Source: Burkholderia sp. NRF60-BP8 (GTDB lineage Bacteria > Pseudomonadota > Gammaproteobacteria > Burkholderiales > Burkholderiaceae). From it: a DNA stretch of 64,000 nt. A program made the translations under genes and the position numbers. Positions 38,514 through 61,369 of the stretch are shown piece after piece. Positions within the stretch are counted from its first letter, which is position 1. Every line of letters begins with the position of its first letter. Location: assembly GCF_001522585.2 (NCBI RefSeq), contig NZ_CP013374.1, positions 787,422-851,421 on the forward strand, in the 5' to 3' direction. The notes below the pieces were generated by a model that saw nothing but the letters and a program-made list of their open reading frames with translations, did no database searches and had not been told where the DNA came from.

Positions 38514-38845
38514 GGGGGAATCCCGGTTCTGCGGGCGGTGCGCGATACGGCACGCGTCCGGTGCTGTCCGAGCATAGGGCAGGCGACGCGCGTCGCGGCT
38601 GAATCGTTCTGAATCGGCTCGAGCGTGGCGCCGCTGCGTCGCTTGCGGCGCGTGCGCGTCGCGGATGCGTCGGACGCGACACGCTTCAGCGCGGCCGGCG
38701 TGCCGTTGATGAACGCGTCGATCTGCCGTTCGATTTCCGCGTTGCGCTGTGCTTCGGAGGTCGGCGTCGCGATGTCGTACGCGCGCCCCGCCGCGGCCGG
38801 CCACGCGGGCGGGCGCCGTGCCGAGCCGCGCGTCGTGCGGCGCTT
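38510..38845 (-). pseudogene. Open frame without start codon, possible 3' gene remnant
   Basis: The minus strand stays open for 111 codons with strong third-position GC and protein-like composition in the middle (AQRNAEIERQIDAFINGTPA, then ALKRVASDASATRTRRKRR). It ends in a TGA overlapping the hydrolase ATG. There is no ATG, GTG or TTG before the last 30 codons, and a stop lies directly upstream at 38846-38848. It may be the C-terminal end of a lost gene or a chance frame. The hydrolase promoter repeat lies inside it. Confidence 0.3.
38571..38614 (-). promoter_or_regulatory. ATTCAG direct-repeat promoter of the hydrolase-monooxygenase operon
   Basis: Minus strand: ATTCAG-AACG-ATTCAG (38614 to 38599), 22 bp, then TATGCT (38576 to 38571) as -10 element, about 60 bp before the hydrolase start. 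Tandem 6-bp repeats with a 10-bp period upstream of a -10 box are the usual layout for OmpR/ToxR-type winged-helix activators. The same pattern recurs at 38844, 41501, 47740 and 61343. Confidence 0.6.
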
Positions 38846-38897
38846 TCAGGAAAATTCAGTTCGCCGCCATGACTTTCAGGCGGGCGTTCCCTAGTCT
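38844..38897 (+). promoter_or_regulatory. TTTCAG direct-repeat promoter ahead of the XapX-like/DUF1275 pair
   Basis: TTTCAG (38844), ATTCAG (38854) and TTTCAG (38874) are all in 10-bp phase, followed by TAGTCT (38892-38897) as a -10-like element. The first -10 base is 38 and 18 bp after the second and third repeat starts, in helical phase with the 28 bp seen at 38599. It lies 71 bp before the small gene at 38968. Confidence 0.55.
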
Positions 38898-38967
38898 TGC
38901 GTCAGAACCGCCGCACGGGTCGGGCGCCATCCTGTCGGCCCGGCCGGCGGCGCAATCGGAACGGACC

Positions 38968-39180
38968 ATGCCTCATCTGATCTCGCCGGGAGCCGCCATC
39001 GCAGTCGGCTTCCCGTACCACCGCGTGCGCGTGCAATCGCCCGCGGCGCCGCTGATCGCGCTCGCGTGCCGGCTCGGCATCGTCTTCGACGAGCGGGCGA
39101 CCCCGCCCGCCGCACCGGTCCGCGATGCGGACACCGCCTACACAACCGCGGAAGCCACGACATGCAGCCCGTGCAAGTAA
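38968..39180 (+). CDS. Diverged XapX-domain (DUF1427-like) small protein
   Basis: This 70-aa protein aligns without internal gaps to the XapX protein at 42554 after its first residue. It keeps the core SPAAPLIAL (SPAPPLIAL there), the preceding glycines and the tyrosine at the end of the first helix. Unlike true XapX proteins, both hydrophobic helices carry charged or proline residues (FPYHRVRVQ, ACRLGIVFDER), so membrane insertion is doubtful. The 3' end overlaps the DUF1275 gene by 19 bp. It may be a decayed copy or a new soluble variant. Confidence 0.55.
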   Translation: MPHLISPGAAIAVGFPYHRVRVQSPAAPLIALACRLGIVFDERATPPAAPVRDADTAYTTAEATTCSPCK

Positions 39181-39899
39181 CGACAGCGGGCGCGGCGGCC
39201 CCCGATCACCTGCGCGGCGAGGATGTGTTCCTCGCATCGATCGCCGGCTATGTCGACACGCTCGGCTTCGTCGCGCTGTTCGGGCTCTTTACCGCGCACG
39301 TCACCGGCAACTTCATCCTGATCGGCTCGGGCCTCGCCGGTGTCGGTCAGGGCCTCATGATCAAGTGGCTCGCGTTTCCGGCATTCATCGCGGGGATCGT
39401 GGCCGCCCGCCTGCTCGATCACCGGATGCGCGTGCGCGGGCATGGCCCGCGGGCGCGCGCGCTGTACGCACTGCAGACGATCCTGCTGGCCGGATTCATG
39501 CTCGCCGGCGTCGCGGCGTCGCCGATCGGCAGCGCCGACGCGCCCGCGACGATCGTCTGCGGGCTGCTCGGTGCGGCGGCAATGGGCGTGCAGAACGCGC
39601 ACGGCCGGCTGACCGCGCGCACCGTCGTCGCGAACACCGTGATGACCGGCAACGTCACGCAGGCGGTCATCGACGCGTTCGACTGGCTCGTGCCGATCGC
39701 CGCGCCGGCCGAACGGGAAGCCGCACGCGCGCGGCTGCGGCGCACGCTGCCGCCGGTGGCCGGATTCGCGCTCGGCGCGGGCGCCGGGGCGAGCGCCTAC
39801 CTGTACGCCGGGTTCTGGGCACTGGCGCTGCCGCTCGCGGCGCTCGGCTTCCTCACCTGGCGATCCGGTCGGACCGACGAGCCGTCCGTGTCGCGCTGA
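39162..39899 (+). CDS. DUF1275 (YoaK-type) membrane protein
   Basis: This 245-aa integral membrane protein has six or so helices. The family signature is present: FLASIAGYVDTLGFVALFGLFTAHVTGN near residue 20 and MGVQNAHGRLTA near 140, with NTVMTGNVTQAVID. Function is unknown in the family, and a transport role is often assumed. The start at 39162 overlaps the preceding small gene by 19 bp, so they are likely co-translated under the TTTCAG promoter at 38844. A hairpin follows the stop. Confidence 0.85.
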   Translation: MQPVQVTTAGAAAPDHLRGEDVFLASIAGYVDTLGFVALFGLFTAHVTGNFILIGSGLAGVGQGLMIKWLAFPAFIAGIVAARLLDHRMRVRGHGPRARALYALQTILLAGFMLAGVAASPIGSADAPATIVCGLLGAAAMGVQNAHGRLTARTVVANTVMTGNVTQAVIDAFDWLVPIAAPAEREAARARLRRTLPPVAGFALGAGAGASAYLYAGFWALALPLAALGFLTWRSGRTDEPSVSR

Positions 39900-39905
39900 A
39901 CGCCG

Positions 39906-39937
39906 ATTCCGCACGCGACGTCGGCTGCGTGCGGAAT
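39906..39937. terminator. Perfect 11-bp stem after the DUF1275 gene
   Basis: ATTCCGCACGC (39906-39916), a 10-base loop and GCGTGCGGAAT (39927-39937) form a strong hairpin 6 bp after the stop. A second smaller GCGGC-GAA-GCCGC hairpin follows at 39941-39953. It separates the gene from the convergent LysR gene. Confidence 0.75.
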
Positions 39938-40045
39938 GGGGCGGCGAAGCCGCTCCGCTCTTCATTCTTTCGACGCCGATTTCGGGAACGGTTGATGCAG
40001 GTCGGCAAACGCTCGACCGCTCGACCGTTCGCAGAAAGCGCAGCG

Positions 40046-40954
40046 TCACGCGCGCGCGGTGAACCGGTCGACGAGGTCGTGGTGACCGAGCTGTTCGACC
40101 CACCAGCGTAGCGCGCGCCCGGCTTCGTTGGCGCGCCACGCGATATAGCAACGGGTCGTGTCGCGCATGCCGATGACTTCCCGCGCGACGAGCCTGCCTT
40201 GCGCGATCGCGGGCGCCGCGATGCAGTCCGGGAGCGTACCCACCGCGAGCCCCTCGCATTGCGCGGCCAGTTTCGCAGCGAGCGTCGGCACCGCGAGATA
40301 CGGTTGGCCAGGGTCAAGCGCGGCCGACTGCGGCTGAAGTTCGCGGGACGTGTCGGAGATCACCGCGCCGCGATACGCGACGATCGATGCCATCGACAGC
40401 GGTTCGGGCAGCGCGGCGAGCGGATGGGTCGGGGCGACCACGAACACGTGCCGCAGCGTGCCGATCGGCTGCGCGACGATGTCCGGCAGTTCCGGCGGCT
40501 CGCCGGCCGCGCCGACGATCAGATCGGCCCGCCGCGAAATCAGCGCGTCCCAGGTGCCGCCGAGCACTTCGGTGGAGAGTCGCAGCCGCGTATCCATTTC
40601 GAGATCGTAGAACGCGTGGACATATGGCCACAGCATGTCGAAGGGCAGTATCTCGGCGATGCAGACGCGGATCTCGGTTTCCCAACCTTGCTGCGCGCGC
40701 TGCGCCTTCCGTTCAAGCTGTTCGGCAGCGTGAAGCAGACGACGGCCTTCCTCGACGACGATGCGGCCCGCGTGCGTGAGCTTCGCACGACGCCCGCTGC
40801 GATCGAACAACGCGACGCCGAGATCGCTCTCGAGCTTCCGTACGACGTATGTCAGTGCGGACGGCACGCGGTGCACCAACTCCGCGGCGTCGGCAAACGT
40901 ACCGGTGCGGTCGATCGCGTCCAGTGCCTCGAGTGCTTCGAAAGACAGCTTCAT
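40046..40954 (-). CDS. LysR-family transcriptional regulator
   Basis: This 302-aa regulator has an N-terminal winged helix (ALEALDAIDRTGTFADAAELVHRVPSALTYVVRKLE spread over residues 6-42, DLGVALFDRSGRRAKLT) and a C-terminal substrate-binding domain (ALISRRADLIVGAAGEPP). The start at 40954 (MKLSFEAL) matches family N-termini, and an earlier in-frame start at 41017 is less likely. It lies next to the XapX/hydrolase/amidohydrolase cluster, but its target cannot be fixed. Confidence 0.88.
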   Translation of the reverse strand: MKLSFEALEALDAIDRTGTFADAAELVHRVPSALTYVVRKLESDLGVALFDRSGRRAKLTHAGRIVVEEGRRLLHAAEQLERKAQRAQQGWETEIRVCIAEILPFDMLWPYVHAFYDLEMDTRLRLSTEVLGGTWDALISRRADLIVGAAGEPPELPDIVAQPIGTLRHVFVVAPTHPLAALPEPLSMASIVAYRGAVISDTSRELQPQSAALDPGQPYLAVPTLAAKLAAQCEGLAVGTLPDCIAAPAIAQGRLVAREVIGMRDTTRCYIAWRANEAGRALRWWVEQLGHHDLVDRFTARA

Positions 40955-41113
40955 GGGGAATGTCGCGACGGCAAGGGCATCGGGCGATGTCGCGCCGTCG
41001 AGCGACGCTGAATCCAATACGGTTCAAAACGGGTCGTCACCCGACGTGCCGGGACACGCACGCATGCGCGCCAACGGTCAGGGGCGACGCCGCGTTCGCT
41101 CGACATCTACACG

Positions 41114-41392
41114 TCACGTCGGCGTCGATTCGCGGCGCTTCACGGCAGCGTCGGCGTGTGCGCCGGGCAGCGCGCCGAACATGTGCTGGCTGCACTTGGC
41201 GTCGCGCCACGCGGTTCCCAGTCGGATGCCGTCGAACATCCGTCGCACCACGGGAAGAATCTGCTCGCCGGCCAGGATGCCGAGCAGGCCGACCAGCGCG
41301 ATGGCGGGCGGCGCCGGCGATTGCACGCCGATCAGCGCATAAACGACGCCGGCGAGGATGCCGGCGAGAAGTGAAGCAATGTACGGTTTCAT
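41114..41392 (-). CDS. XapX-domain (DUF1427) membrane protein with C-terminal extension
   Basis: This 92-aa protein has two hydrophobic helices separated by the family core QSPAPPAIALVGLLGILAGEQ. The N-terminus is YIASLLAGILAGVVYALIG. A nonhydrophobic tail of about 40 residues (CSQHMFGALPGAHADAAVKRR) extends beyond the usual 50-55 aa. Function unknown. It is divergent from the isochorismatase-like gene across the 306-bp region with the TTCAG repeats, and it is one of three XapX relatives in 4 kb. Confidence 0.85.
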   Translation of the reverse strand: MKPYIASLLAGILAGVVYALIGVQSPAPPAIALVGLLGILAGEQILPVVRRMFDGIRLGTAWRDAKCSQHMFGALPGAHADAAVKRRESTPT

Positions 41393-41698
41393 GGGTCTGG
41401 AAGGGAATGACGGCCGTTGAAGATACGGATAACTACCGGGCTGGCGTCGATCCGAAAGTCTTGGGCCAGCCTATCAGGTCCGCGCGTTCGTCGTCAGTGC
41501 ATTCAATGAAATTCAGATCTTTTCAGTCTGAATTCGGCGCGTGGCGAAAATCAGAACAATTAACTGGTGCGGCCGCAAGTTCACGTATTGAATGGCGCAG
41601 GCCGGCTGCCGACGCTTGCGACTCGGCGCATTGGACGCTTCGTGGATTCGTCGGCCAGGCAAGCCTCATCTTTCTTCGCGTCAAAGGACATCACCATC
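41393..41698. other. Divergent intergenic region of the XapX / isochorismatase genes
   Basis: This 306-bp gap is lower in GC, with three phased TTCA(A/G) repeats at 41501-41526 and an inverted CTGAAT at 41528-41533. No gene is seen. It is the control region for both divergent units. Confidence 0.6.
41501..41526 (+). promoter_or_regulatory. Three phased ATTCAA/ATTCAG/TTTCAG repeats
   Basis: ATTCAA (41501), ATTCAG (41511) and TTTCAG (41521) recur at exactly 10-bp steps upstream of the isochorismatase-like gene (start 41699). A good TANNCT -10 box at the usual 27-28 bp is not seen; TTAACT at 41560-41565 is the nearest candidate. The repeats match those at 38599, 38844, 47740 and 61343. Confidence 0.55.
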
Positions 41699-42385
41699 AT
41701 GAGCAATCCCAAGCTTGAAGTACTTACTCCGCACAACAGCCAGCTGATCTTCATCGACCAGCAGCCGCAGATGGCGTTCGGCGTGCAGTCGATCGATCGC
41801 CAGACGCTGAAGAACAACGTCGTCGGGCTCGCGAAGGCCGCGAAGGTCTTCAACATTCCGACCACGATCACGACGGTCGAAAGCGACAGCTTCTCGGGCC
41901 ACACCTATCCCGAGCTGCTCGACGTGTTCCCGAACCAGAAGACGCTCGAACGCACGTCGATGAATTCGTGGGACGACCAGAAGGTGCGCGACGCGCTCGC
42001 CGCGAACGGCCGCAAGAAGGTGGTCGTGTCGGGCCTGTGGACCGAAGTCTGCAATACGACGTTCGCGCTGTGCGCGATGCTCGAAGGCGACTACGAGATC
42101 TACATGGTCGCCGACGCATCGGGCGGCACGACGCAGGCTGCGCACGACTTCGCGATGCAGCGCATGGTGCAGGCCGGCGTGGTGCCGGTCACGTGGCAGC
42201 AGGTCCTGCTCGAATGGCAGCGCGACTGGGCGCACCGCGAGACGTACGACGCGGTGATGGCGATCGCGAAGGAGCATTCGGGCGCATACGGGATGGGCGT
42301 GGACTACGCGTACACGATGGTCCACAAGGCGCCGCAGCGCACCGCGACGCCGCACGAGTCGATCCCGGCCGTTCCGGCGAAGTAA
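41699..42385 (+). CDS. Isochorismatase-like hydrolase (YcaC type)
   Basis: This 228-aa cysteine hydrolase of the isochorismatase superfamily has its catalytic aspartate in QLIFIDQQPQMAFGV (Asp20) and nucleophilic cysteine in GLWTEVCNTTFAL (Cys118), after the cis-peptide-type strand KKVVVSG. The length and C-terminal extension match YcaC-like hydrolases, whose natural substrate is unknown. Amide- and imide-hydrolysing relatives exist. AAAGGA precedes the ATG at 41699. It heads an apparent operon with a XapX gene and an amidohydrolase. The repeat promoter at 41501 is upstream. Confidence 0.88.
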   Translation: MSNPKLEVLTPHNSQLIFIDQQPQMAFGVQSIDRQTLKNNVVGLAKAAKVFNIPTTITTVESDSFSGHTYPELLDVFPNQKTLERTSMNSWDDQKVRDALAANGRKKVVVSGLWTEVCNTTFALCAMLEGDYEIYMVADASGGTTQAAHDFAMQRMVQAGVVPVTWQQVLLEWQRDWAHRETYDAVMAIAKEHSGAYGMGVDYAYTMVHKAPQRTATPHESIPAVPAK

Positions 42386-42553
42386 GCGCGGACGGCCTGC
42401 AACGGCGGGTGCCGGTGCGGCGGGTTCGATGCGAACGCGCCGCATGGGCGCCATGGCCGCGGGCGGCGGACGTGAAAGAGACGCGAATGCCGCCCGCGGC
42501 ATGCCGTTCGGAACACTACGCCTGCATTTGAATTTGTCCGGGAGATTTATCGC

Positions 42554-42721
42554 ATGGAACCTTATCTGGTTTCCCTTGGTGCGGGCCTGCTGATCGGTGT
42601 GATTTACAGCGCCATCAAGATTCGCTCTCCCGCACCGCCGCTGATTGCGCTGGTCGGGTTGCTCGGCATGCTGATCGGCGTGCAGGCCTTACCCACCGTG
42701 AAACAGCTGTTTGGCTTTTGA
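42554..42721 (+). CDS. XapX-domain (DUF1427) small membrane protein
   Basis: This 55-aa protein is the canonical length for XapX. It has helix one YLVSLGAGLLIGVIYSAI, the core RSPAPPLIALVGLLGMLIG and a short basic end. The ATG follows GGGAGATTTATCGC. It lies 168 bp after the hydrolase and 19 bp before the amidohydrolase, so it is part of that operon. A role as a small inner-membrane transporter or partner is possible but unproven. Confidence 0.85.
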   Translation: MEPYLVSLGAGLLIGVIYSAIKIRSPAPPLIALVGLLGMLIGVQALPTVKQLFGF

Positions 42722-42740
42722 TCAACAAGAGGTGATGCAC

Positions 42741-44630
42741 ATGACCGCAACCGTGACCCAGCCGGATCTGATCCTGCACAACGGGCGATTCACGACGCTC
42801 GACCGCGCGAACCCCGTCGCCACGGCCGTCGCGATTGCCGCCGGCCGCTTCGTCGCGGTGGGCAGCGACGCGGACGTCATGCCGCTCGCGGGCCGCGCGA
42901 CGAAGACGATCGATCTCGGCGGCCGCGGCGTGCTGCCGGGCCTGATCGACAACCACTGCCACGTGATTCGCGGCGGACTGAACTACAACATGGAACTGCG
43001 CTGGGACGGCGTGCCGTCGCTCGCGGTCGCGATGGAGATGCTCAAGCGTCAGGTCGCTGTGACGCCCGCGCCGCAGTGGGTGCGCGTGGTCGGCGGCTTC
43101 ACCGAACATCAGTTCGTGGAGAAGCGGCTGCCGACGATCGACGAACTCAATGCAGTCGCGCCGGACACACCCGTATTCATCCTGCACCTGTACGACCGCG
43201 CGCTGCTGAACGCGGCGGCGCTGCGGGTGGTCGGCTACACGAAGGACACGCCGGAGCCGCCGGGCGGCACCATCCTGCGCGATGCCGCCGGCAACCCGAC
43301 CGGCCTGCTGCTCGCGAACCCGAACGCGACGATCCTCTACGCGACGCTCGCGAAGGGGCCGAAGCTGCCGTTCGAGTATCAGTACAACTCGACGCGCCAC
43401 TTCATGCGCGAGCTGAACCGGCTGGGCGTGACCGGCGTGATCGACGCGGGCGGCGGGTCGCAGAATTATCCGGAGGATTACGAAGTGATCCGCAAGCTGC
43501 ACGACGCGGGCGAGATGACGATCCGCATCGCGTACAACCTGTTCACGCAGAAGCCGAACGCGGAGAAGGAAGACTTCGTGAACTGGACGAAGAGCGTCAA
43601 GTACCACGACGGCACTGACTACTTCCGCAATAACGGCGCGGGCGAGATGCTGGCGTTTTCCGCGGCCGACTTCGAAGACTTCCGCGTCGCGCGTCCGGAC
43701 CTGCCCGAGCAGATGGAGGACGATCTCGAAGGCGTCGTGCGCGTGCTCGCGGAAAACCGCTGGCCGTGGCGCATGCACGCGACCTACGACGAAACCATCA
43801 GCCGCGCGCTCGACGTGTTCGAGAAGGTCGACAAGGACATCCCGCTCGAAGGGCTGAACTGGTTCTTCGATCACGCGGAAACGATCACCGAGCAATCGAT
43901 GGACCGGATCGCCGCGCTCGGCGGCGGCGTCGCGGTGCAGCATCGGATGGCGTACCAGGGCGAGTACTTCGTCGAGCGCTACGGCGCGCAAGCCGCGGAG
44001 GCGACGCCGCCGGTCGCGAAGATGCTCGGCAAGGGGCTGAAGGTGTCGGCCGGCACGGATGCGACGCGCGTCGCGTCGTACAACCCGTGGGTATCGCTCG
44101 CGTGGCTCGTGACGGGCAAGACGGTCGGCGGCATGCGCCTGTATCCGCAGCGCAACCTGCTCGATCGCGAAACCGCGCTGCGGATGTGGACCGAGTACGT
44201 GACGTGGTTCTCGAACGAGGAAGGCAAGAAAGGACGCATCGCGGTGGGGCAGCTTGCCGACCTGATCGTCCCGGATCGCGATTTCTTCGCGTGTGCGGAA
44301 GACGATATCGCCGCCACGACCGCGTTGCTGACGGTGGTCGACGGGAAGATCGTGTGGGGGGCGGGGCCGTTCGCATCGCACGACGCGCCGATTCCGCCGG
44401 CGATGCCGGACTGGTCGCCGGTGCGCGAGTTTGGCGGCTACGGCGGCTGGGGCGCGACGCAGCGCAACGGCGCGCCGTTGCAGCGCGCGGCGGCCGCCGC
44501 GATGTGCGGCTGCGCGAATGCATGCACCGTTCACCAGCATGCGCACGCGAGCGCATGGGCAAGCGCGTTGCCGACGTCCGACGCGAAGGGCTTCTGGGGC
44601 GCGTTCGGCTGTTCGTGCTGGGCGGTCTGA
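42741..44630 (+). CDS. Amidohydrolase family 3 (YtcJ-like) with Cys/His-rich tail
   Basis: This 629-aa metal-dependent hydrolase has the first metal motif HCH (His72, His74) in GLIDNHCHVIRGG. Later ligand candidates are His378 in FFDHAETI and an Asp near 440 in SAGTDATRVASYNPW. YtcJ relatives hydrolyse amides, formamides or N-acyl compounds. The C-terminal 45 residues are unusual: MCGCANACTVHQHAH, then a linker, then GAFGCSCWAV. The ATG at 42741 has better spacing from AAGAGG than the one at 42735. A paralogue lies at 53315, with a similar tail but lost ligands. The substrate is unknown. Confidence 0.85.
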   Translation: MTATVTQPDLILHNGRFTTLDRANPVATAVAIAAGRFVAVGSDADVMPLAGRATKTIDLGGRGVLPGLIDNHCHVIRGGLNYNMELRWDGVPSLAVAMEMLKRQVAVTPAPQWVRVVGGFTEHQFVEKRLPTIDELNAVAPDTPVFILHLYDRALLNAAALRVVGYTKDTPEPPGGTILRDAAGNPTGLLLANPNATILYATLAKGPKLPFEYQYNSTRHFMRELNRLGVTGVIDAGGGSQNYPEDYEVIRKLHDAGEMTIRIAYNLFTQKPNAEKEDFVNWTKSVKYHDGTDYFRNNGAGEMLAFSAADFEDFRVARPDLPEQMEDDLEGVVRVLAENRWPWRMHATYDETISRALDVFEKVDKDIPLEGLNWFFDHAETITEQSMDRIAALGGGVAVQHRMAYQGEYFVERYGAQAAEATPPVAKMLGKGLKVSAGTDATRVASYNPWVSLAWLVTGKTVGGMRLYPQRNLLDRETALRMWTEYVTWFSNEEGKKGRIAVGQLADLIVPDRDFFACAEDDIAATTALLTVVDGKIVWGAGPFASHDAPIPPAMPDWSPVREFGGYGGWGATQRNGAPLQRAAAAAMCGCANACTVHQHAHASAWASALPTSDAKGFWGAFGCSCWAV

Positions 44631-47739: not shown

Positions 47740-47793
47740 CTTCAGGACAATTCAGGCGCCGCTCAGGATTTTCGCCGCGGCGCCCGATAAGCT
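47740..47793 (+). promoter_or_regulatory. CTTCAG direct-repeat promoter of the metallo-hydrolase gene
   Basis: CTTCAG (47740), ATTCAG (47750) and GCTCAG (47761) are followed by TAAGCT (47788-47793), which begins 27 bp after the third repeat starts. This is the same spacing as at 61343. It lies 73 bp before the ATG at 47866, at the break point of the LysR remnant. Confidence 0.58.
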
Positions 47794-47865: not shown

Positions 47866-48909
47866 ATGAAGACCCTGTTCCGGCACGCGTGCGTTGCGCA
47901 TGCGGCCCGTTTGCTGATCGTGGCCGGATGCGCGGGCCTGTCGACGCCGGCGGCGTTTGCGCAGGCCGGCGTGCAGTCCGACGCCCACGCCGACGCGCAA
48001 CCCGAAGCGCAATCCACGCCGGCCCCCGCCGCCGGCCCACAGCCTCCCGGCTTCTATCGGCAGAAGATCGGCGACTTCACGGTGATCGCGCTGTCCGACG
48101 GCACGCATCCGTTTCCGGTCGACACGGTGTTTCGCGACGTCTCGAAGGACGAGATCCGGCGCGACCTCGACCGCGCCTTCCTGGAGCCGCCCGTGCAGGG
48201 ATCGATCAATGCGTTCCTGGTCGATACCGGATCGAAGCGGATCCTCGTCGATGCGGGCGCCGGCACGCTGTACGGCGACTGCTGCGGCAAGCTGCTCGAC
48301 GATCTGCGCGCGGCCGGCTATGCCCCCGAACGGATCGACGAAGTGCTGCTCACGCATCTGCACAAGGACCATGTCGGCGGCATTGCGTCGAACGGTGCGA
48401 TGACGTTTCCCAATGCCGTCGTGCGAGTCAATGCCGTCGAAGCCGCGTATTGGCTCGATCCCGCCAACAAGGCGCAGGCGCCGGCGTTCCTCGCGTCGTT
48501 CTTCGATGCGGCCGCCGCGGCGGTCGCGCCTTACGTCGCGGCCGGCCGCTTCAGGACGTTTCGCGGCGAAGCGACGCTCGCGCCCGGCATTCGCGCGGTG
48601 CCGATGCCCGGCCATACGCCGGGCCACACGGCTTATCTGATCGAGAGCGGCCACGCGGGCCTGCTCGCGTGGGGCGACATCGTGCACGTGGCGGCGATCC
48701 AGTTGCGCGACGTCGACGCGACGGTCCAGTACGACAGCGATGCCGGCGCCGCCCGCCGCACGCGGCGGGCCACGCTGAAGCGCGTCGCCGATCGACGCTA
48801 TCTCGTCGGTGCCGCGCATATCGCGTTTCCCGGGCTCGGGCACTTGCGCCGGGACGGCGCGCAATACGACTGGGTGCCGGTCAACTACGACGCGACGCCG
48901 GTGCGCTGA
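47866..48909 (+). CDS. Secreted metallo-beta-lactamase-fold hydrolase
   Basis: This 347-aa protein has a signal peptide (LLIVAGCAGLSTPAAFAQ) and an MBL domain with the zinc motif THLHKDHVGG (HxHxDH at 164-169), a later histidine in PGHTPGHTAYLI and the aspartate in LLAWGDIVHV. It resembles the secreted group near N-acyl-homoserine lactonases and penicillin-degrading relatives, so quorum-signal or lactone hydrolysis is a possible but unproven activity. The start is the ATG of MKTLFRH at 47866. The TTCAG-type promoter precedes it, and the AraC gene converges 24 bp beyond its stop. Confidence 0.83.
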   Translation: MKTLFRHACVAHAARLLIVAGCAGLSTPAAFAQAGVQSDAHADAQPEAQSTPAPAAGPQPPGFYRQKIGDFTVIALSDGTHPFPVDTVFRDVSKDEIRRDLDRAFLEPPVQGSINAFLVDTGSKRILVDAGAGTLYGDCCGKLLDDLRAAGYAPERIDEVLLTHLHKDHVGGIASNGAMTFPNAVVRVNAVEAAYWLDPANKAQAPAFLASFFDAAAAAVAPYVAAGRFRTFRGEATLAPGIRAVPMPGHTPGHTAYLIESGHAGLLAWGDIVHVAAIQLRDVDATVQYDSDAGAARRTRRATLKRVADRRYLVGAAHIAFPGLGHLRRDGAQYDWVPVNYDATPVR

Positions 48910-50254: not shown

Positions 50255-53170
50255 ATGATTCAGATCGGAACTTTGTCGGTGGATTTCGAGCAACGCGACA
50301 TTCGCCGTCACGGCGCGTCGCTGCGCATCGGCGGGCGCGCGCTCGACATTCTCGAAGTCCTGCACCGCGCGAGCGGTTCGGTCGTGTCGAAGGACGACAT
50401 CATGGACGCGGTCTGGCCGGGCCTGATCGTCGAGGAAAACCGGCTCCAGGTGCATGTGGCGACGCTGCGCAAGGCGCTCGGCGCGAGCCGCGATCTGATC
50501 AAGACGGTGCCCGGGCGCGGCTACCTGCTGGTGGCGAGCGCGTCGCCCGTCCCGGACCCCGTGTCGGCCGCCGAAGCGCCGGCCGTCGCCGTCCCGCCCG
50601 ATGCCGCCGTGTCGTCGCCGATCGCGCCGCTCGTCGGGCGCGACGCCGAACTCGCGCAGATCGTCGACATGCTCGAATGCACGCCGGTCGTCACGCTCGT
50701 CGGCGCGGGCGGGATCGGCAAGACGAGTCTTGCCGTGCGCGTCGCGCACCGCGTGCGCAGCCGCTCGCGCGAGCGCGTGCTGTTCGTGGAGCTGGCGCGC
50801 GCGTCGACGCGCGACGACATGCTGATCGCGCTCGCCGCCGAGCTCGGCCTCGATATGCCGGGCGTGCCCGCCATCGACCGTATCGTCGACGCGTTCGCGA
50901 CGTCGCGCTGCCTGCTCGTGCTCGACAACGCGGAGCACATCGTCGATCTGGTGGCGAGCCTCGTCGAAACGCTGACGTCGAGCGCCGGCTCGCTGCGCGT
51001 GCTCGTGACGAGTCGCGAGCCGCTGCACATCTCGGCCGAAGCGGTGCTGCGCATGAGCCCGCTCGCGGTGCCCGACGGCGACGCGTCCGCCGACGAAATC
51101 GTCCGCTGTTCGGCCGTCGAGCTGTTCCTGGAGCGCGTGCGTGCGGCCGCGCCGGATTGCACGGTCGACGAAGCCGGCATGCGGCTGATCGGCGACATCT
51201 GCCGGCGCCTCGACGGGCTGCCGCTTGCCATCGAACTGGCCGCGGCGCGCGTGGCGACGCTCGGGCTCGCGGTCGTCGCGTCGCGTCTCGACGATCGGCT
51301 GAACCTGCTGACGGGCGGGCTGCGTTCGGCGCTGCCGCGTCATCAGACGCTGCGTGCGACGTTCGACTGGAGCTACGTGCTGCTCGATCGGGCCGCGCGC
51401 GCGCTGTTTCGCCGGATGGGGTGCTTCATCGGGCCGTTTTCGTTCGATGCCGCGTACGCGGTCGCCGCCGAGCCCGGCACGTCGGCCGCGGACATGATCG
51501 CGGTGCTCGGCGAGCTGGTGGCGAAATCGCTGGTGACCGTCGAGTTCCATGGTGCCTATGCGCGCTACCGGCTGACCGAATCGACGCGCGCGTACGCGGT
51601 CGAAAAACTGCACGACGAAGGCGAATTCGAGCGCATCGCCGCGCGCCATGCGGAGTATGAGCGCGAGCGCGCGCCCGTGCGGCTCGTGGCGCCCTTGATG
51701 CCCGTGATGCCCGCCGACGTGCCGCCTGCCGATGCGCCCGCGTTGGCCGTGGACGAACCGGCGGACGCCATCGAGGCAGCCGCAGCCGTGCCCGAGCCCG
51801 ACCGGCTGGCGCGCGCGCTGCTGGAGCCGTCGCGGATGCGCGCGTGCACGGCGCGCGCGAGAGCGGTGCTCGACGCACTCGACACGGACGCGGCAGACCC
51901 GGTCGACGCCGCGCGCGAGATGCGGCTGCGGGCGGCCTGCGCGTCGGCGCTGCTGCATACCGACGGCGACGCGCTGGCCGCGGCCGCGATGTGGGATCGC
52001 ACGCTCGGTCTCGCCGCGCACATCGGCGACGACGCGTTCGACGCACGCGCGCTGGTCGGGCTGTGGAACACGATGCTGACGCTGTCGGACATTCACGAAT
52101 CGCTGCGCTATGCGACGCGCTTCGAGCGGGCGGCCGAGCGGCGCGGCGATCGGTCGCAGCGGTTGCTGGCCAACACGATGGTCGCGACGTCGCTGCATTA
52201 CTTCGGCGAGCATGCGCAGGCGCGCGAGCGGCTGGAAGCGGCGACGGCCGAGCTCGCCGACGCAGGCGAATCGCCGTGCGCGCAGGCCGCGCTGGGCGTC
52301 GACATGGCGACGCTGGGCCGCACGATGCTGATCCGTCTTCTGTGGATGCAAGGCGAGCCCGAGCACGCGATGCGCGTCGCCGCGCAAGCGGTCGAGCATG
52401 GGCGCCGCAGCCCGTCGCCGCTCACGCTGTGCATCGTGCTCGGCGCGGCCGCCGTGCCGATCGCGCTGCGCTACGGCGATCACGACATCACCTCCGACTA
52501 TCTCGCGACGCTGCGCGCGACCGCCGACGCGCACGGTTTCGACATCTGGCGCAGTCACGCGGAATGCCTGACCGGCCAGTTCGACATCCAGGCCGGCCAT
52601 CCCGGCGCCGGCCTCGCCCGGCTCGAACCCGCGCTGCGGCGCATCGAGGCGAGCGGATTCCGGCGCGTGCTCGCGCCATTGACCGTCGCGTATGCGGAGG
52701 GCCTCGTGCGGACCGGCCGCGCGGATGAGGCGCGCCTCCGGCTCGATGCGACGCTCGCGCGCTGCCGCGCGCACGGCGAGCACCTGTTCGTCCCCGAGCT
52801 GCTGCGCGTGCGGGGCGTCGCGATGCTCGAGCAGGCGCGTACCGTCGGCGCGAATCTCGCGGTGGCGTACGAGGCCGACGGGCATCGTCATCTGCAGATG
52901 GCGATCCAGACCGCGAACGCGCAGGGCGCCGCGATGTGGGCGCTGCGCGGCTCGCTCGATCTCGCCGATCATCTGATCGAGCGCGGGCACACCGCGCAGG
53001 CGTCGGCGCTGGTCGCCGGGGTCGCGCGGCACTTCGATCCGCATTCGCGCGCACACGACGTGCGCCGCTTGCTGCGCGTGCAGAACTTCGTCCGTCAGGA
53101 TGCGCCGCCCGCGCCATGCCTGACCCGCGCGCGGCGCGATGCCGCCGACGCGGCCCAGCAGGCGGCATGA
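50255..53170 (+). CDS. Winged-helix / STAND-ATPase transcriptional regulator
   Basis: This 971-aa protein has an OmpR/ToxR-type winged helix at residues 1-95 (GGRALDILEVLHRASGSVVSKDDIMDAVWPG spread over 24-55, VHVATLRKALGASRDLIKTVPGRGYLL) and a short linker. Next comes a STAND NTPase with P-loop VGAGGIGKTS near residue 150, Walker B CLLVLDNAEHI near 225, the VTSREPL block and GLPLAIELAAARVATLG near 325. The C-terminus is a long helical, TPR-like sensor. An Ala/Pro-rich linker lies near 490-520. GGAGG precedes the ATG at 50255. It is the best candidate to bind the TTCAG direct repeats around it. Confidence 0.85.
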   Translation: MIQIGTLSVDFEQRDIRRHGASLRIGGRALDILEVLHRASGSVVSKDDIMDAVWPGLIVEENRLQVHVATLRKALGASRDLIKTVPGRGYLLVASASPVPDPVSAAEAPAVAVPPDAAVSSPIAPLVGRDAELAQIVDMLECTPVVTLVGAGGIGKTSLAVRVAHRVRSRSRERVLFVELARASTRDDMLIALAAELGLDMPGVPAIDRIVDAFATSRCLLVLDNAEHIVDLVASLVETLTSSAGSLRVLVTSREPLHISAEAVLRMSPLAVPDGDASADEIVRCSAVELFLERVRAAAPDCTVDEAGMRLIGDICRRLDGLPLAIELAAARVATLGLAVVASRLDDRLNLLTGGLRSALPRHQTLRATFDWSYVLLDRAARALFRRMGCFIGPFSFDAAYAVAAEPGTSAADMIAVLGELVAKSLVTVEFHGAYARYRLTESTRAYAVEKLHDEGEFERIAARHAEYERERAPVRLVAPLMPVMPADVPPADAPALAVDEPADAIEAAAAVPEPDRLARALLEPSRMRACTARARAVLDALDTDAADPVDAAREMRLRAACASALLHTDGDALAAAAMWDRTLGLAAHIGDDAFDARALVGLWNTMLTLSDIHESLRYATRFERAAERRGDRSQRLLANTMVATSLHYFGEHAQARERLEAATAELADAGESPCAQAALGVDMATLGRTMLIRLLWMQGEPEHAMRVAAQAVEHGRRSPSPLTLCIVLGAAAVPIALRYGDHDITSDYLATLRATADAHGFDIWRSHAECLTGQFDIQAGHPGAGLARLEPALRRIEASGFRRVLAPLTVAYAEGLVRTGRADEARLRLDATLARCRAHGEHLFVPELLRVRGVAMLEQARTVGANLAVAYEADGHRHLQMAIQTANAQGAAMWALRGSLDLADHLIERGHTAQASALVAGVARHFDPHSRAHDVRRLLRVQNFVRQDAPPAPCLTRARRDAADAAQQAA

Positions 53171-55213: not shown

Positions 55214-55294
55214 GCGGCGCGTGCCGGTGCGCGCCGCACGCCGCCGTGCATTGAACGATTTTCCGCCCCGGGTACGGGGCATGAAGGAGACAGG

Positions 55295-57073: not shown

Positions 57074-59335
57074 CTATGCGTCGATGCGCTTTCTCAGTGC
57101 GTCGCCGGCGAACGGCATTTCGCGCATGCGCTGGCCGGTCGCGTCGAAGATCGCGTTGGCGAGCGCGCCGGCGGTCGGCCCCATCGACGCCTCGGCTGCC
57201 CCGAGAAACGGCGCGCCGGGGCGATCGATCAGATGGACCGTCACGTTCCGCGGCACGGCCAAGAAGCGCAGGATCGGGTAGCTGCTCCAGTCGAAGCTGC
57301 GGATCCGCTCGGTGTCGTACTGCAGCGCCTCGTACAGCGTCCAGCTCGCGGCCTGCACGATGCCGCCCTCGATCTGGTTGCGGATCCCGTCCGGCGACAC
57401 GATCTGGCCCGCGTCGACGGCGGCTTCCGCGTGTTCGAGCGTCACCTGGCCGGTTTCCGGCACGACCGACACCTCGACCGCGATCGCGACGTAGGCCATC
57501 AGGTTCTTGTACTTGCCGAACGCGAAGCCGACGCCGCGGTTGCGTGCGCGCGGCGGTCTCGGCCAGCCGAAGTGCTTCGCGGCGAGCCGGATCACCTGGC
57601 TCGCGCGATGGTCTGCCATGTGACGCAGCCGGAATTCGACCGGATCGACGCCGGCCGCGTGCGCGAGTTCGTCCATGAAGCTTTCGATCGCCCAGATGTT
57701 CGTGTGCGCGCCGAGCGAGCGCATCGCGGACGTCTGCAGCGGCATCGTCGGCGAGAAGTGGTTGACGATGTGCTGGTTCGGCAGCGCATACAGCGGAATC
57801 GCGTTGCGGTCGGCGCCCCCCTCGGGCTGCAGCATCGGCGTGGACGGCGCGGGCACGAACGGCGGCTCCAGCATGCGCGCGGGCAGCAGCCGGCCGGCGT
57901 TGACGATCCGCTCGTTGTGCGAGCTGCTCCACAGCGCGTAGTTCCAGTCGACGATGCGGCCGCTCGCATCGAGCGATGCGCTGACCTCGGTCACCATCGC
58001 CGGCGTGAAGTGATCCCACGTGTGTTCCTGTTCGCGCATCCATTGCACGCGGATCGGTTTGCCGGGCATCGCGGCGGCGATCAGCGCGGCATGCGCGGCC
58101 GCGTCGTCCGCCCCGTTGTGTCCGTAACAGCCCGACCCTTCGGTGTGAATGCAGCGGATGCTCGCCTTCGGCATCGACAGCATCTCCGCGAGCGCGTCGC
58201 GCAGCGGGTAGACGCCCTGCGAGTGGGTCCAGACCGTCATCGTCCCGTTCTCGAGATGCGCAACCGAACACGATGGCCCGATCGACCCGTGCAGCAGGTA
58301 GTTCTTCAGGAACGTCGCGTTCAGCGTCTTCACGGACGGCGCGGCGGCCGCGTGCGTGTTCGCGATCTCGATGCGCTGCGTCGCGATCCGCTTCAGATCC
58401 GCGTGCACGGTGCCGCGCTCGGGCAGCTTGCGGCCCGGCGACCACCGGCAGCCGGCGGCGAGCGCGCGCTGCGCGACCACCGCCTGCCATTCGCCCTGCG
58501 CGACCACCGCGAGCATGCTGCCGTTGCGCACGATCCGCACGACGCCCGGCAGCTTCAGGATCGCAGCTTCGTCGAACGACAGCAGCTTCGCGTCGTACAC
58601 CGGCGGCATCACGACGCGCGCGTGCAGCATGCCGGGCAACTGCATGTCCTGCACGTAGCTGACGCCGCCCGTGACCTTGTTCGGGATGTCGACGCGCGGC
58701 AGCGACGTGCCGATCACGGCGAACGTCGCCGGGTTCTTCAGCGGCGACGTGGGCGCAGCATTGCGGTGCAGGTCGACGGTGCGGATCGCGTCGCCGTAGG
58801 TCATCGTGCGGCCGTCCGGCGCCTTGATCACCGCGTCGGCGGTCGTCAACGTGCGCGGATCGACGCCGAAGCGTTTCGCCGCGCCTTCCACCAGCAGCGC
58901 GCGCACCTGCGCGGCCGCGTTCAGCAGCGCGGAGCCGCTGTCCGCCATCGTATGGCTGCCGGCGGTCAAGCCTTCGTCGGGCGACGCGCCGGTGTCGGCG
59001 GTCAGGAACGTGATCAGCGACGGCTTCATGTCGAGTTCCTCGGCGGCCACCTGCAGCAGCGCGGTGCGCACGCCGGTGCCGAGCTCGACCTTGCCGGTGA
59101 ACACGGTGACCTTGCCGTCGGGCGCGATCCTGATCCACGCGTCGAGCAGCGGATTGGTCTTCAGGCTGCCGGCGAGCGTCTGGGTGGCTTTCGCCACATG
59201 CACGGCCGCGCCTTCGTCGGCGATCACCAGTTGCGCGGCCGCACGCGAGGCAGGCGCGAGACTGAACGCGACGAACAGCGCCCCGGAGACGATGAAGTGC
59301 CGGCGGCCTTCGTCGATGTCGTCGTGGGAATTCAT
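57074..59335 (-). CDS. Molybdenum hydroxylase large subunit (IorB / aldehyde-oxidase type), Tat-exported
   Basis: This 753-aa xanthine-dehydrogenase-family molybdopterin subunit starts with a twin-arginine signal (GRRHFIVSGALFVAFSLAPA). It continues with two aldehyde-oxidase-like repeats (VTVFTGKVELGTGVRTALLQVAAEELD near residue 75; FLKNYLLHGSIGPSCSVAH near 345; GCYGHNGADDAAAHAA near 415). C-terminal GGIVQAASWTLYEA and GAAEASMGPTAGALANAIFDA complete the family. It resembles isoquinoline-1-oxidoreductase and membrane-bound aldehyde dehydrogenases with a cytochrome c partner. It begins in a 1-base overlap with the 2Fe-2S subunit stop. Confidence 0.9.
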   Translation of the reverse strand: MNSHDDIDEGRRHFIVSGALFVAFSLAPASRAAAQLVIADEGAAVHVAKATQTLAGSLKTNPLLDAWIRIAPDGKVTVFTGKVELGTGVRTALLQVAAEELDMKPSLITFLTADTGASPDEGLTAGSHTMADSGSALLNAAAQVRALLVEGAAKRFGVDPRTLTTADAVIKAPDGRTMTYGDAIRTVDLHRNAAPTSPLKNPATFAVIGTSLPRVDIPNKVTGGVSYVQDMQLPGMLHARVVMPPVYDAKLLSFDEAAILKLPGVVRIVRNGSMLAVVAQGEWQAVVAQRALAAGCRWSPGRKLPERGTVHADLKRIATQRIEIANTHAAAAPSVKTLNATFLKNYLLHGSIGPSCSVAHLENGTMTVWTHSQGVYPLRDALAEMLSMPKASIRCIHTEGSGCYGHNGADDAAAHAALIAAAMPGKPIRVQWMREQEHTWDHFTPAMVTEVSASLDASGRIVDWNYALWSSSHNERIVNAGRLLPARMLEPPFVPAPSTPMLQPEGGADRNAIPLYALPNQHIVNHFSPTMPLQTSAMRSLGAHTNIWAIESFMDELAHAAGVDPVEFRLRHMADHRASQVIRLAAKHFGWPRPPRARNRGVGFAFGKYKNLMAYVAIAVEVSVVPETGQVTLEHAEAAVDAGQIVSPDGIRNQIEGGIVQAASWTLYEALQYDTERIRSFDWSSYPILRFLAVPRNVTVHLIDRPGAPFLGAAEASMGPTAGALANAIFDATGQRMREMPFAGDALRKRIDA

Positions 59336-59835
59336 CACAGCCCCTTGCTGATCGTGACGGGAGCGGAGGCGGGTTCGGGCGCCGGCAGCCCCGCGGCCGA
59401 GCGCACCGCCGCGAGAATCCGCATGTGCGTGCCGCAGCGGCACAGGTTCGGTTCCATGTGCGTGCGCAGTTCCTGCTCGCTCGGCTTCGGATTGCGTTCG
59501 AGCAGCGCCTGCGCGCGCATGATCATTCCGGCGATGCAGTAACCGCACTGCGCGGCCTGGTGCTCGATGAACGCGCGTTGCAGCGGGCCGGGATGCTCGG
59601 CGGTGCCGAGGCTCTCGATGGTGCGCACGCTGCGCGCACCGAGCGCGGCCACCGGCATCAGGCACGAGAAGGTCGGCTTGCCGTCGACGATCACGGTGCA
59701 GGCACCGCATTGTCCGAGGCCGCAGCCGAACTTCGCGCCGTGCAGGTGCAGGTCGTTGCGCAGCGCGTACAGCAGCGGCGTGGACGGATCGATGTCCAGC
59801 GTGTGCCGCACGCCGTTGACGGTGAGGGTGATCAT
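59335..59835 (-). CDS. 2Fe-2S subunit of the molybdenum hydroxylase (IorA type)
   Basis: This 166-aa protein has an N-terminal plant-type ferredoxin cluster (KFGCGLGQCGACTV, then FSCLMP) and a C-terminal all-helical 2Fe-2S domain (AQCGYCIAGMIM, PNLCRCGTHMRI). It carries electrons from the molybdenum centre to the cytochrome c. The ATG at 59835 overlaps the cytochrome stop as ATGA, and the stop shares one base with the next start. The three genes are therefore tightly coupled. Confidence 0.93.
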   Translation of the reverse strand: MITLTVNGVRHTLDIDPSTPLLYALRNDLHLHGAKFGCGLGQCGACTVIVDGKPTFSCLMPVAALGARSVRTIESLGTAEHPGPLQRAFIEHQAAQCGYCIAGMIMRAQALLERNPKPSEQELRTHMEPNLCRCGTHMRILAAVRSAAGLPAPEPASAPVTISKGL

Positions 59836-61118
59836 CGTGCGGTGTCCTCTTTTCTGAGCTTCGCGGCCAGCGCGTCGACGCCCGACCAGGCGGGACGATC
59901 GGTATAGGTCTCGCGCACGTATGCGGCGAGATCGGCGATCTGCGCGTCGTCGTACTGGTCGATGAACGACGGCATGTAGTTCAGCGTGTCCGCGCCGTGC
60001 CAGCCGATGCCGTTGAACATCATCTGGATCGCGTTGCGCGGCGTATCGGCGTTGACCGCCGTACTGAACGCGAGCGTCGGCCGCTCGCCGATCGACTGCA
60101 TCGGCGCGGCCGGCCCGTGGCACTGCGCGCACGACGCCTGGAACAGCGTCGCGCCGCGCTGCGCGGCCGGCGTCGTCGCGGCGCGCTCGACCGGATTCGC
60201 GGCCGCGGCGGCACGCGCGCCCGCCGGCTTCTGGATCGACAGGATGTACGCGGCGATCGCCTCGACGTCCTCCACCGGCACCGTCGCGAGGTCGCGCGTG
60301 ACGGGCAGCATCGGCCCGGCCGCCGCACCGTGCTCGCTCGCGCGGCCGGTGCGCAGGTAGGCGACGAGCTGCGCCTGCGTCCACGGGCGGGCCGCATGGC
60401 CCAGCGTATTGAGCGGCGGCGCTTCCCAGCCGTCGACGATGCCGCCGTCGAACGCGCGGCCGCGCTGCTCGCCACCGATCGCGTTCAGCGGCGAATGGCA
60501 CGACGCGCAGTGGCCGAGCCCGTCGACGAGCATCCGGCCGCGGTTCCATTGCTCGGACTGTGCGGGGTCCGGTCGATGCGCGCCTTCGCGCAGGAACAGC
60601 ACGTTCCAGAACGCGACCAGCGGCCGGAAGTTCAGCGGGAATATCAGGTCGTTGGCGGGCGCCGTCGCGTGTACCGGCTCGCGCGTCATCAGGTACGCGT
60701 ACGCGGCGGCGATGTCGTCGTCCGACATCCGCGTGAAATGAATGTACGGAAACGCCGGGTAAAGCGGCTGGCCGTTGCGTCCGATGCCGGTGCGCAGCGC
60801 GCGGGCGAATGCGTCGCGCGACCAGCGGCCGATCCCCGTTTCGGCGTCCGGTGTGATGTTGGTCGCGTAGATCGTGCCGAACGGCGTCGCGAGCGGCAGC
60901 CCGCCCGCGAACGGCTTGCCGTCCTTCGCGGTGTGGCACACGACGCAGTCGCCGAGCGCGACGACGCGCGCGCCGGCACGTACCAACTGCGGATCGAACG
61001 AAGCAGGGGCGGGCGGATCGATCGGCGCGATCGACGGCCGCACCATGATGCCGATCGCGACCGCGACGCCCACGATCGCGATGCCGGCCGCGCCGAACCA
61101 GAGTCGTTTGTGCATCAT
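59832..61118 (-). CDS. Tri-haem cytochrome c electron acceptor of the hydroxylase
   Basis: This 428-aa protein has an N-terminal membrane anchor or signal (WFGAAGIAIVGVAVAIGIMV) and three haem-c motifs: CVVCH near 57, CASCH near 205 and CAQCH near 330. The layout matches AdhB-type tri-haem subunits of periplasmic dehydrogenases. It should pass electrons from the IorAB-like enzyme to the respiratory chain. GGAG precedes the ATG at 61118; the next ATG (61115) is equivalent. It is the first gene of the operon. The TTTCAG repeats and a TAGACT box lie about 200 bp upstream. Confidence 0.9.
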   Translation of the reverse strand: MMHKRLWFGAAGIAIVGVAVAIGIMVRPSIAPIDPPAPASFDPQLVRAGARVVALGDCVVCHTAKDGKPFAGGLPLATPFGTIYATNITPDAETGIGRWSRDAFARALRTGIGRNGQPLYPAFPYIHFTRMSDDDIAAAYAYLMTREPVHATAPANDLIFPLNFRPLVAFWNVLFLREGAHRPDPAQSEQWNRGRMLVDGLGHCASCHSPLNAIGGEQRGRAFDGGIVDGWEAPPLNTLGHAARPWTQAQLVAYLRTGRASEHGAAAGPMLPVTRDLATVPVEDVEAIAAYILSIQKPAGARAAAAANPVERAATTPAAQRGATLFQASCAQCHGPAAPMQSIGERPTLAFSTAVNADTPRNAIQMMFNGIGWHGADTLNYMPSFIDQYDDAQIADLAAYVRETYTDRPAWSGVDALAAKLRKEDTAR

Positions 61119-61315
61119 GTGCGCTCCAGGCGACGCGGTGCGCCGCAAGCGATGCGATGCGCGGCAACGCCGGACGATGCGGGCCGGGCGTGCGCGGCCG
61201 TCCGATGCGGCCGCGACCGTCTTGCCGCGCGGCGGTGATTGGCGACGGGGATCATGTTGTCACTCCAGGTCGATAACGGGCGCAAGCGCCGTCCTGCGCG
61301 GCAGCTCATGAACGC

Positions 61316-61369
61316 AGTCTACGCAGAGGCCGCGATCATTGCCTGAAGCGACGCTGAAACGTTCTGAAA
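61316..61369 (-). promoter_or_regulatory. TTTCAG-type triple repeat upstream of the cytochrome/hydroxylase operon
   Basis: Minus strand: TTTCAG (61369), TTTCAG (61359, 10-bp step), CTTCAG (61348, 11-bp step), 21 bp, then TAGACT as -10 (61321 to 61316). The repeats lie inside the last codons of the outer-membrane-factor gene, pointing at the cytochrome gene 200 bp downstream. They match the other TTCAG promoters in repeat sequence, phasing and -10 hexamer. Confidence 0.6.

Follow-up and report, generated by a model that had tools for sequence, protein, structure and literature searches.

The last 64 kb of contig NZ_CP013374.1 of Burkholderia sp. NRF60-BP8 (positions 787,422 to 851,421, hereafter the window) carry five exact TTCAG-N5-TTCAG direct repeats upstream of separate transcription units. 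On sequence evidence, we consider it very likely that these repeats are operators of two paralogous regulators, REG_L and REG_S, in which an OmpR/PhoB-type winged helix is joined to a STAND ATPase, and that these proteins activate a mostly local, detoxification-type gene cluster. The sites, their enrichment, their association with the regulator genes, their promoter-like geometry and the domain architecture of the regulators were observed directly. The original prediction, made from the window alone, had proposed an undescribed regulon defined by the repeat; the present analysis goes beyond it in the identity of the regulator, in the extension of the cluster past the end of the replicon and in the occurrence of the box with the regulator family well outside Burkholderia. 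Plain coordinates are positions in the window; those preceded by C3 are positions in the whole 851,421-bp contig, one of three in this 7.08-Mb genome.

A pattern search of the window bore out all five repeats, the positions first given for them being essentially right, with a shift of one base at one end. No exact copy occurred in 100 dinucleotide shuffles of the window and, with one mismatch allowed, 9 copies were observed for 0.86 expected. The boxes and the putative -10 elements read from the sequence near them are the following (offsets are 0-based from the first T of the box):

38599..38613, minus strand, TTCAG box 1, upstream of the alpha/beta hydrolase gene 37638-38513 and the flavin adenine dinucleotide (FAD) monooxygenase gene 36454-37596, 85 bp from the start codon
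38571..38576, minus strand, -10-like TATGCT of box 1, offset +37
38845..38859, plus strand, TTCAG box 2, upstream of the XapX/DUF1427 gene 38968-39180 and the DUF1275 gene 39162-39899
38892..38897, plus strand, -10-like TAGTCT of box 2, offset +47
41512..41526, plus strand, TTCAG box 3, 172 bp upstream of the gene for an isochorismatase-family hydrolase
47741..47755, plus strand, TTCAG box 4, 110 bp before the gene for the protein with a metallo-beta-lactamase fold
47788..47793, plus strand, -10-like TAAGCT of box 4, offset +47
61354..61368, minus strand, TTCAG box 5, upstream of the cytochrome c / [2Fe-2S] / molybdenum hydroxylase operon
61316..61321, minus strand, -10-like TAGACT of box 5, offset +47

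As had been proposed, the repeats lie at promoters or gene ends, all five facing a same-strand gene start 85-235 bp downstream. With gene boundaries taken from a simple gene-calling script written for this analysis, four of the five are intergenic, and box 5 extends over the final bases of a gene for an outer-membrane efflux protein (61336-62793) and points out of it. At several sites the additional, weaker copy in 10-11 bp phase is also real: box 2 is followed by the weak copy CATGACTTT, box 3 has a near copy TTCAATGAAATTCAG one period upstream, and third copies accompany box 4 (CTCAG at 47762) and box 5 (TTCAG at 61343-61347). The -10 of box 1 lies one helical turn closer than usual, in agreement with the original prediction, and no TANNNT is found at the usual offset from box 3. 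Box 3 is kept at 172 bp upstream of its orthologues in loci L079 and L086 of related genomes and box 4 at 110 bp in L086, L098, L100 and L103, while the box 1 orthologue in L086 lies 87 bp upstream of a 97%-identical gene.

The whole genome contains 11 exact TTCAG-N5-TTCAG sites, compared to 2 for the reversed-pattern control. Five are in the window. Another three lie within 7 kb of the start of this replicon; two of these overlap to form a triple TTCAG array (C3:1499-1523), and the third is at C3:6508. If the 851-kb replicon is circular, its start adjoins the end of the window and the eight sites form a single cluster spanning about 32 kb. The remaining sites (C3:228431 and two on contig C2) were treated as background since they lack the RANNW spacer. 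With 8 of 11 exact sites in one cluster, the pattern is not equally common in coding DNA genome-wide. A 26-position extended pattern with at most two mismatches occurs at five places in the genome, all in the cluster. Exactly three mismatches add 13 places, of which 11 are outside the cluster and 2 inside it, a level that we regard as noise because the reversed control gives 6. In the 61 Burkholderia genomes searched, the bare TTCAG-N5-TTCAG pattern was present at a low background throughout, and genomes lacking the regulator held few such sites, mostly with other spacers. TTCAG-RANNW-TTCAG is thus a more diagnostic form than the bare pattern.

A matrix trained solely on other genomes, near relatives included, was used to scan the window and two 20-kb stretches of C3. 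The five window sites scored 18 to 41 (40.6 for box 2). Nothing else in the window exceeded 10.2 (the next score being 9.1), and a single site, with a score of 12.8, appeared when the window was reversed. Within the first 20 kb of C3 the matrix recovered the triple array, C3:6508 and two sites on opposite strands, 33 bp apart:

C3:2735-2749, minus strand, matrix site before the gene for an alpha/beta hydrolase with a twin-arginine translocation (Tat) signal, also found by the extended pattern
C3:2782-2796, plus strand, matrix site before the genes for a DUF3331 protein and another hydrolase

In 43 regions fetched from this and other genomes, 73 of 74 exact sites were intergenic, although intergenic DNA makes up 21.6% of these regions; 53 of the 74 face a same-strand gene start, 19 do not, and 2 have no gene ahead of them in the region. 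As the regions were chosen around regulators or sites, these counts are a description and not a test.

Both halves of the cluster encode a candidate regulator:

50255..53170, plus strand, candidate regulator REG_L, 971 amino acids, with an N-terminal OmpR/PhoB-type winged helix, a STAND/AP-ATPase core and a long C-terminal region
C3:4675-6480, paralogue REG_S, 601 amino acids, with a Trans_reg_C winged helix at the N terminus and, after it, an ATPase of STAND/NB-ARC type that is only weakly recognised

REG_L was found by a search of the genus with REG_S, to which it is 45% identical. PF00486 (Trans_reg_C) matches both proteins well above its cut-off of 26.2 bits (64.2 and 56.4 bits). In REG_S this domain covers residues 23-92, with matching secondary structure in the predicted model, and the ATPase matches start at about residue 117. 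The NB-ARC profile scores 28.6 bits with REG_L, above its cut-off of 23.5, and 19.8 bits with REG_S, below it. Walker A, Walker B, TSR and GLPLA motifs are nevertheless found in both proteins, and most of these columns are invariant in the regulator alignment A2. The recognition helices of the two paralogues are nearly the same (VEENNLQVHIASLRKAL / VEENRLQVHVATLRKAL). By sequence, the closest solved structures are winged helices of response regulators and CadC, with PhoB chains among the PDB matches. The AlphaFold model of the 601-residue REG_S has a mean predicted local distance difference test score (pLDDT) of 82.9 and a predicted template modelling score (pTM) of 0.49. Foldseek aligned it with Apaf-1, CED-4, plant NLRs and, lower down, a bacterial STAND-TPR protein; the likeness is at the domain level, since the whole-chain template modelling (TM) score is about 0.4 at best.

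Domain searches of both proteins gave no match to Response_reg (receiver), GerE (the C-terminal LuxR-type helix-turn-helix, HTH) or, in Pfam, BTAD. Judged by these domains, REG_S and REG_L are not two-component regulators, having no receiver, are not MalT-like, having no LuxR HTH, and are not SARPs, having no BTAD. A defence identity of the anti-phage STAND type (Avs-like) was also considered and set aside, PADLOC matching 0 families for both proteins. For a transmembrane segment behind the winged helix, the mark of CadC/ToxR membrane regulators, hydropathy windows alone were examined; the highest Kyte-Doolittle values are 2.2 at 511-529 in REG_S and 1.9 at 324-342 in REG_L, both in predicted helical or ATPase parts and not directly after the winged helix. 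REG_S orthologues have about 600 residues in many of the Burkholderia genomes fetched and 866-949 in L090, L094, L109 and L110, a difference that looks like the loss of the helical C-terminal region in a single lineage. A third paralogue of the same architecture, with the helix EEGALRVH, is present near REG_L in two Burkholderia genomes (L100:3831-6404 and L103:13118-15679).

Box and regulator tend to occur together. Across the 61 Burkholderia genomes, with presence of the regulator defined as a match at E<1e-40, core sites (TTCAGRANNWTTCAG) numbered 171 in the 41 regulator-bearing genomes and 9 in the 20 without (means of 4.2 and 0.45 per genome). At least two core sites were found in 36 of 41 genomes of the former group compared to 2 of 20 of the latter, and the reversed control gave 7 in all 61 genomes. 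Among the core sites listed (150, in 38 genomes), 126 are no more than 30 kb from a regulator, a count that takes in regulator rows down to E 6.7e-41.

The association extends beyond the genus. At least 558 stretches were confirmed as relatives of the regulator. Using an alignment of 14 regulators as query, we collected 79 named loci, drawn from the best 80 of a larger number of matches, and scanned their predicted intergenic DNA for direct repeats of every pentamer (low-complexity ones excluded) at six spacings; the complement of each repeat also appears in the ranking and was counted once. In the 14 Burkholderia loci TTCAG-N5 ranks first (25 observed for 0.32 expected, in 12 loci). In the 29 loci from Paraburkholderia, Caballeronia, Trinickia and Pararobbsia, TTAAG-N5 comes first (13 for about 0.08, in 10 loci) and TTCAG-N5 second (9 for 0.48, in 6 loci). 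TTCAG-N5 again ranks first in the 36 other loci (14 for about 0.5, in 9 loci), followed by TTAAG-N5 (4 for 0.04); this group comprises alphaproteobacteria, Rokubacteria, Pseudomonas and some metagenome-assembled genomes (MAGs), including one betaproteobacterial and one from Burkholderiales.

In some rhizobia and Rokubacteria the box lies in the divergent intergenic region beside the regulator and faces the other gene. The only three exact sites of a 6.0-Mb Rokubacteria MAG adjoin its regulator, between the latter and an alpha/beta hydrolase gene, which is followed by genes for an extracytoplasmic function (ECF) sigma factor and a cytochrome P460. The genome set including this MAG was chosen because its genomes had sites, and, this example apart, site densities in it were not used as proof. 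One box precedes an epoxide hydrolase gene in Phyllobacterium, and in the rhizobial loci L182 and L188 the regulator and a divergently oriented gene of LuxR type flank a box. No exact TTCAG site was found within 20 kb of the distant homologues in L097, L108, L111, L112 and L113.

We compared the letter at the third position of the box with the recognition helix of the neighbouring regulator. Among 43 Burkholderiales loci, the 27 with an ENxLQVH helix have 33 TTCAG, 7 TTAAG and 11 mixed pairs; the 10 with an EN[NT][IV][QH]VHLS helix have 1, 7 and 1, and the remaining 6 have 0, 1 and 1, respectively. In the group of other loci, a box of any type was present in 12 of 18 whose helix is x-L-Q-like and in 1 of 12 where it is L-R (Fisher p 0.002, kinship ignored). 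These helix groups were sorted by eye, loosely and after the counts were known: L154, L186 and L206 depart from N-x-L-Q, one counted box (L175) lies inside a gene, and six loci were left out (L184, L187, L192, L193, L196 and L203, of which L184 and L196 have a box). That the box type follows the recognition helix of the regulator is, with counts taken without tree correction, a lead and not a proof.

The position of the repeats points to activation. We selected sites by two copies 10 bp apart, and 81 of 132 were retained after removal of near-duplicates. The weak third copy reads CAnGA..TT at positions 24-32 (first T = 1), 11 bp after the second copy. In line with the -10 elements noted originally, TANNNT starts at a fixed offset in 41 of the 81 non-redundant sites (31 at +47, 10 at +48), and none of the other offsets from +15 to +68 accounts for more than two. 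The third copy thus covers the -35 position, and the fixed distance to the -10 suggests activation, the repeats replacing the -35 element. By analogy, this geometry is what would be expected for contact with region 4 of sigma, as in the structure solved for AfsR (in the excerpts available of PMC10936776).

Physical binding, activation, an ATP switch and a signal are what we infer from these observations. Each TTCAG (TTMAG in relatives) would be occupied by one winged-helix monomer, adjacent monomers being spaced by 10 and then 11 bp, and the bound regulator would act as an activator by recruiting sigma-70 RNA polymerase to promoters in which the repeats take the place of the -35. The STAND ATPase, by analogy with AfsR, most likely holds the regulator off until signal and ATP are bound. 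The mostly local regulon would comprise alpha/beta hydrolases, an isochorismatase-type hydrolase, a flavin monooxygenase, a molybdenum hydroxylase with cytochrome c, a metallo-hydrolase, XapX/DUF1275 and DoxX, and looks suited to oxidising and hydrolysing a small molecule that is toxic or reactive.

Conservation of the box was examined in non-redundant upstream regions (350 bp upstream plus 60 bp) of homologues with at least 40% identity in other genomes, using the pattern TTMAG-N5-TTMAG. Same-strand boxes were found before 15 of 25 isochorismatase-type, 7 of 9 cytochrome c/molybdenum-hydroxylase, 7 of 15 DoxX, 11 of 27 Tat alpha/beta-hydrolase, 4 of 10 metallo-hydrolase and 5 of 18 DUF1275 homologues, compared to 0 for the reversed-letter control in each of the 30 families listed. 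Opposite-strand boxes were few, except before genes divergent from a target (XapX next to isochorismatase, 10 of 11; DUF3331, 5 of 15). The box is therefore kept upstream of the same genes in related species, as the original prediction required. Clustering and conservation both speak for the single regulon that had been proposed; a catabolic or detoxification role is suggested only by the enzyme types, which point to the handling of a reactive or xenobiotic small molecule. The probable targets in the window, with the source of their assignment, are:

36454..37596, minus strand, FAD-dependent monooxygenase-like protein, probable second gene (Pfam)
37638..38513, minus strand, alpha/beta hydrolase (Pfam; 37638-38510 searched)
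38968..39180, plus strand, XapX-like DUF1427 small protein (Pfam)
39162..39899, plus strand, DUF1275 protein (Pfam; longer frame searched)
41699..42385, plus strand, isochorismatase-family hydrolase (Pfam; longer frame searched)
47866..48909, plus strand, metallo-beta-lactamase-fold hydrolase (longer frame searched)
57074..59335, minus strand, molybdopterin-binding large subunit of the target operon (Pfam; longer frame searched)
59335..59835, minus strand, [2Fe-2S] subunit of the target operon (Pfam)
59832..61118, minus strand, cytochrome c, first gene of the molybdenum-hydroxylase operon (Pfam; 59832-61148 searched)

The best NCBIfam resemblance of the 47866-48909 product is to the AidB lactonase (212 bits, below the cut-off of 360), and a quorum-quenching activity like that of AidB-type acyl-homoserine lactone (AHL) lactonases is only a possibility for it. 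Two closely similar LysR regulators (MKLSFEALEALDAIDRTGTF...) are encoded in the two halves of the cluster (40046-40954 and C3:8784-9692); the closest NCBIfam model to the second is PunR, below cut-off.

Several known systems resemble the one described here. PhoB- and PmrA-type response regulators have a DNA-binding domain of the same family and use direct repeats with a period of about 11 bp; PmrA boxes contain TTAAG repeats. Unlike them, REG_S and REG_L lack a receiver domain and carry their winged helix at the N terminus, joined to a STAND ATPase. With STAND NTPases such as Apaf-1, CED-4 and the bacterial STAND-TPR protein (PDB 1z6t, 6mfv) they share the Walker A, Walker B, TSR sensor and GLPLA motifs, but the whole-chain TM score is low and the effector part here is a DNA-binding winged helix. 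The SARP domain of PimR, a SARP-LAL protein, includes BTAD.

AfsR, a large SARP of Streptomyces, comes closest. As described in the excerpts available of PMC10936776, it has the same order of parts (N-terminal OmpR-type DNA-binding domain, central STAND/NOD ATPase, helical C-terminal part), its ATPase and TPR parts inhibit it until ATP binds, and its 11-bp direct repeats lie over the -35, as do, from the sequence, the repeats of 10-11 bp period here. In contrast to AfsR, no BTAD/BTA domain was found in REG_S and REG_L, the repeated units are TTCAG/TTAAG pentamers 10 bp apart with a weak third at 11 bp, the repeats, with the start of the -10 placed at -12, would span about -59 to -28, further upstream than those of AfsR (-40 to -19 in the same excerpts), and the hosts are Proteobacteria and Rokubacteria instead of actinobacteria. 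PimR, according to the accessible part of PMC5930380, likewise combines a winged helix with an ATPase-type region and is a cluster-situated activator with two or three tandem direct repeats of 10-11 bp period, but its heptamer is CGGCAAG, its C-terminal part is of the LAL type and its operator does not overlap the -35. By analogy, the regulator would work like a large SARP, yet it is not a SARP by the BTAD criterion. The winged-helix proteins of PMC13101487 and PMC4324302, as far as the excerpts of these papers go, belong to other protein families and were set aside as matches. In the open-licence literature, with few subscription papers covered, we found no description of the box, of the regulon, or of the DNA site or mode of action of the family.

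We weighed four other explanations of the repeats. A separate OmpR/PhoB two-component response regulator encoded elsewhere could bind the box, the STAND genes being in the cluster for another reason. Response regulators of this type bind similar direct repeats with a period of about 10-11 bp, and the genomes hold further weak winged-helix matches that are probably response regulators. However, core sites are frequent solely in genomes with the STAND regulator and adjoin its gene, they recur beside STAND homologues in alphaproteobacteria and Rokubacteria, and the box type follows the helix of the STAND protein; we give this alternative a slim chance. Binding of the repeats by the LysR or AraC regulators that are conserved in the cluster is still less probable. 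The LysR genes (40046-40954 and C3:8784-9692) do travel with the cluster, but LysR operators are usually interrupted palindromes and not 10-bp direct repeats, and in rhizobia and Rokubacteria the TTCAG-type repeats are found next to STAND regulators. Moreover, no LysR was found among the Pfam-scanned divergent genes of 7 loci (one gave no match, and part of the genes were scanned), and the box was present before 0 of 35 upstream regions of LysR_b and LysR_c homologues.

Operator and regulator may also be as we propose but serve repression, alone or together with activation. Not every box is at a gene start, the array between the emrB and Tat hydrolase genes being one exception, and a position over the -35 could also block polymerase. 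The fixed position of the -10 in 41 of 81 sites, with repeats over the -35 as at AfsR-activated promoters (excerpts of PMC10936776), argues against repression, which we regard as unlikely. Chance, coding bias or a mobile repeat could account for the low background of the bare pattern seen throughout the genus, but hardly for an almost exclusively intergenic location (73 of 74 exact sites in the 43 fetched regions, against an intergenic share of 21.6% of their DNA), for spacers and flanks that vary between sites, or for control patterns that are rare (7 in 61 genomes) or absent (upstream-region test); the probability of such an origin is negligible.

Several observations weigh against operators of REG_L and REG_S that activate the facing genes. 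The 19 of 74 exact sites that face no same-strand gene start include the C3:1499-1523 array, which lies between convergent genes, and many target homologues lack an exact box (for example 10 of 25 isochorismatase and 16 of 27 Tat hydrolase regions). Seven of the 20 regulator-less genomes hold 1-2 core sites, 9 altogether; conversely, a regulator-like match comes with no core site in G006, G008 and G052 and with a single one in G044 and G057, and in genomes that do have the regulator, 15 of the 141 core sites listed are more than 30 kb away from any such gene. Because the genomes of the genus share ancestry, their counts are not independent and p-values overstate the evidence. An L-R-helix (EEGALRVH) paralogue in L132 (4444) has a TTAAG-N5-TTAAG box 112 bp before its own gene, which may go against the relation between helix and box. 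Finally, same-strand boxes were found before none of 77 non-redundant upstream regions of REG_S and REG_L homologues, so no autoregulation backs the link between regulator and box.

A broader proposal could equally prove right or wrong. Winged helix-STAND proteins may be a widespread gram-negative counterpart of SARPs, with a common code from Burkholderia to rhizobia and Rokubacteria: TTMAG-N5-TTMAG and a third copy over the -35, the choice between C and A being made by the recognition helix. They would control hydrolase/oxidoreductase clusters via an intracellular ligand sensed by the STAND part. It is much less certain that, as a further part of this proposal, a long transcript driven by the array at the emrB 3' end runs antisense through emrB and then in sense into emrA and the outer-membrane gene, an arrangement which we take to be excludon-like coupling. 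A computable operator linked to a regulator family makes regulons predictable from sequence. These regulators would offer a gram-negative system for how STAND ATPases control transcription, and co-regulation in one detoxification-type cluster is a first hypothesis on what XapX, DUF1275, DUF3331 and several hydrolases do.

The box or array at the emrB 3' end is itself conserved. It is directed antisense into emrB and usually lies between emrB and the convergent Tat hydrolase gene, as seen at C3:1499-1523 (minus strand) and in L074, L077, L080, L085, L095, L099, L101, L102 and L104. Where emrA and the outer-membrane gene are shown, both run in the direction of the box beyond emrB. No clear -10 accompanies this array in NRF60-BP8 itself, and one is present in several relatives.

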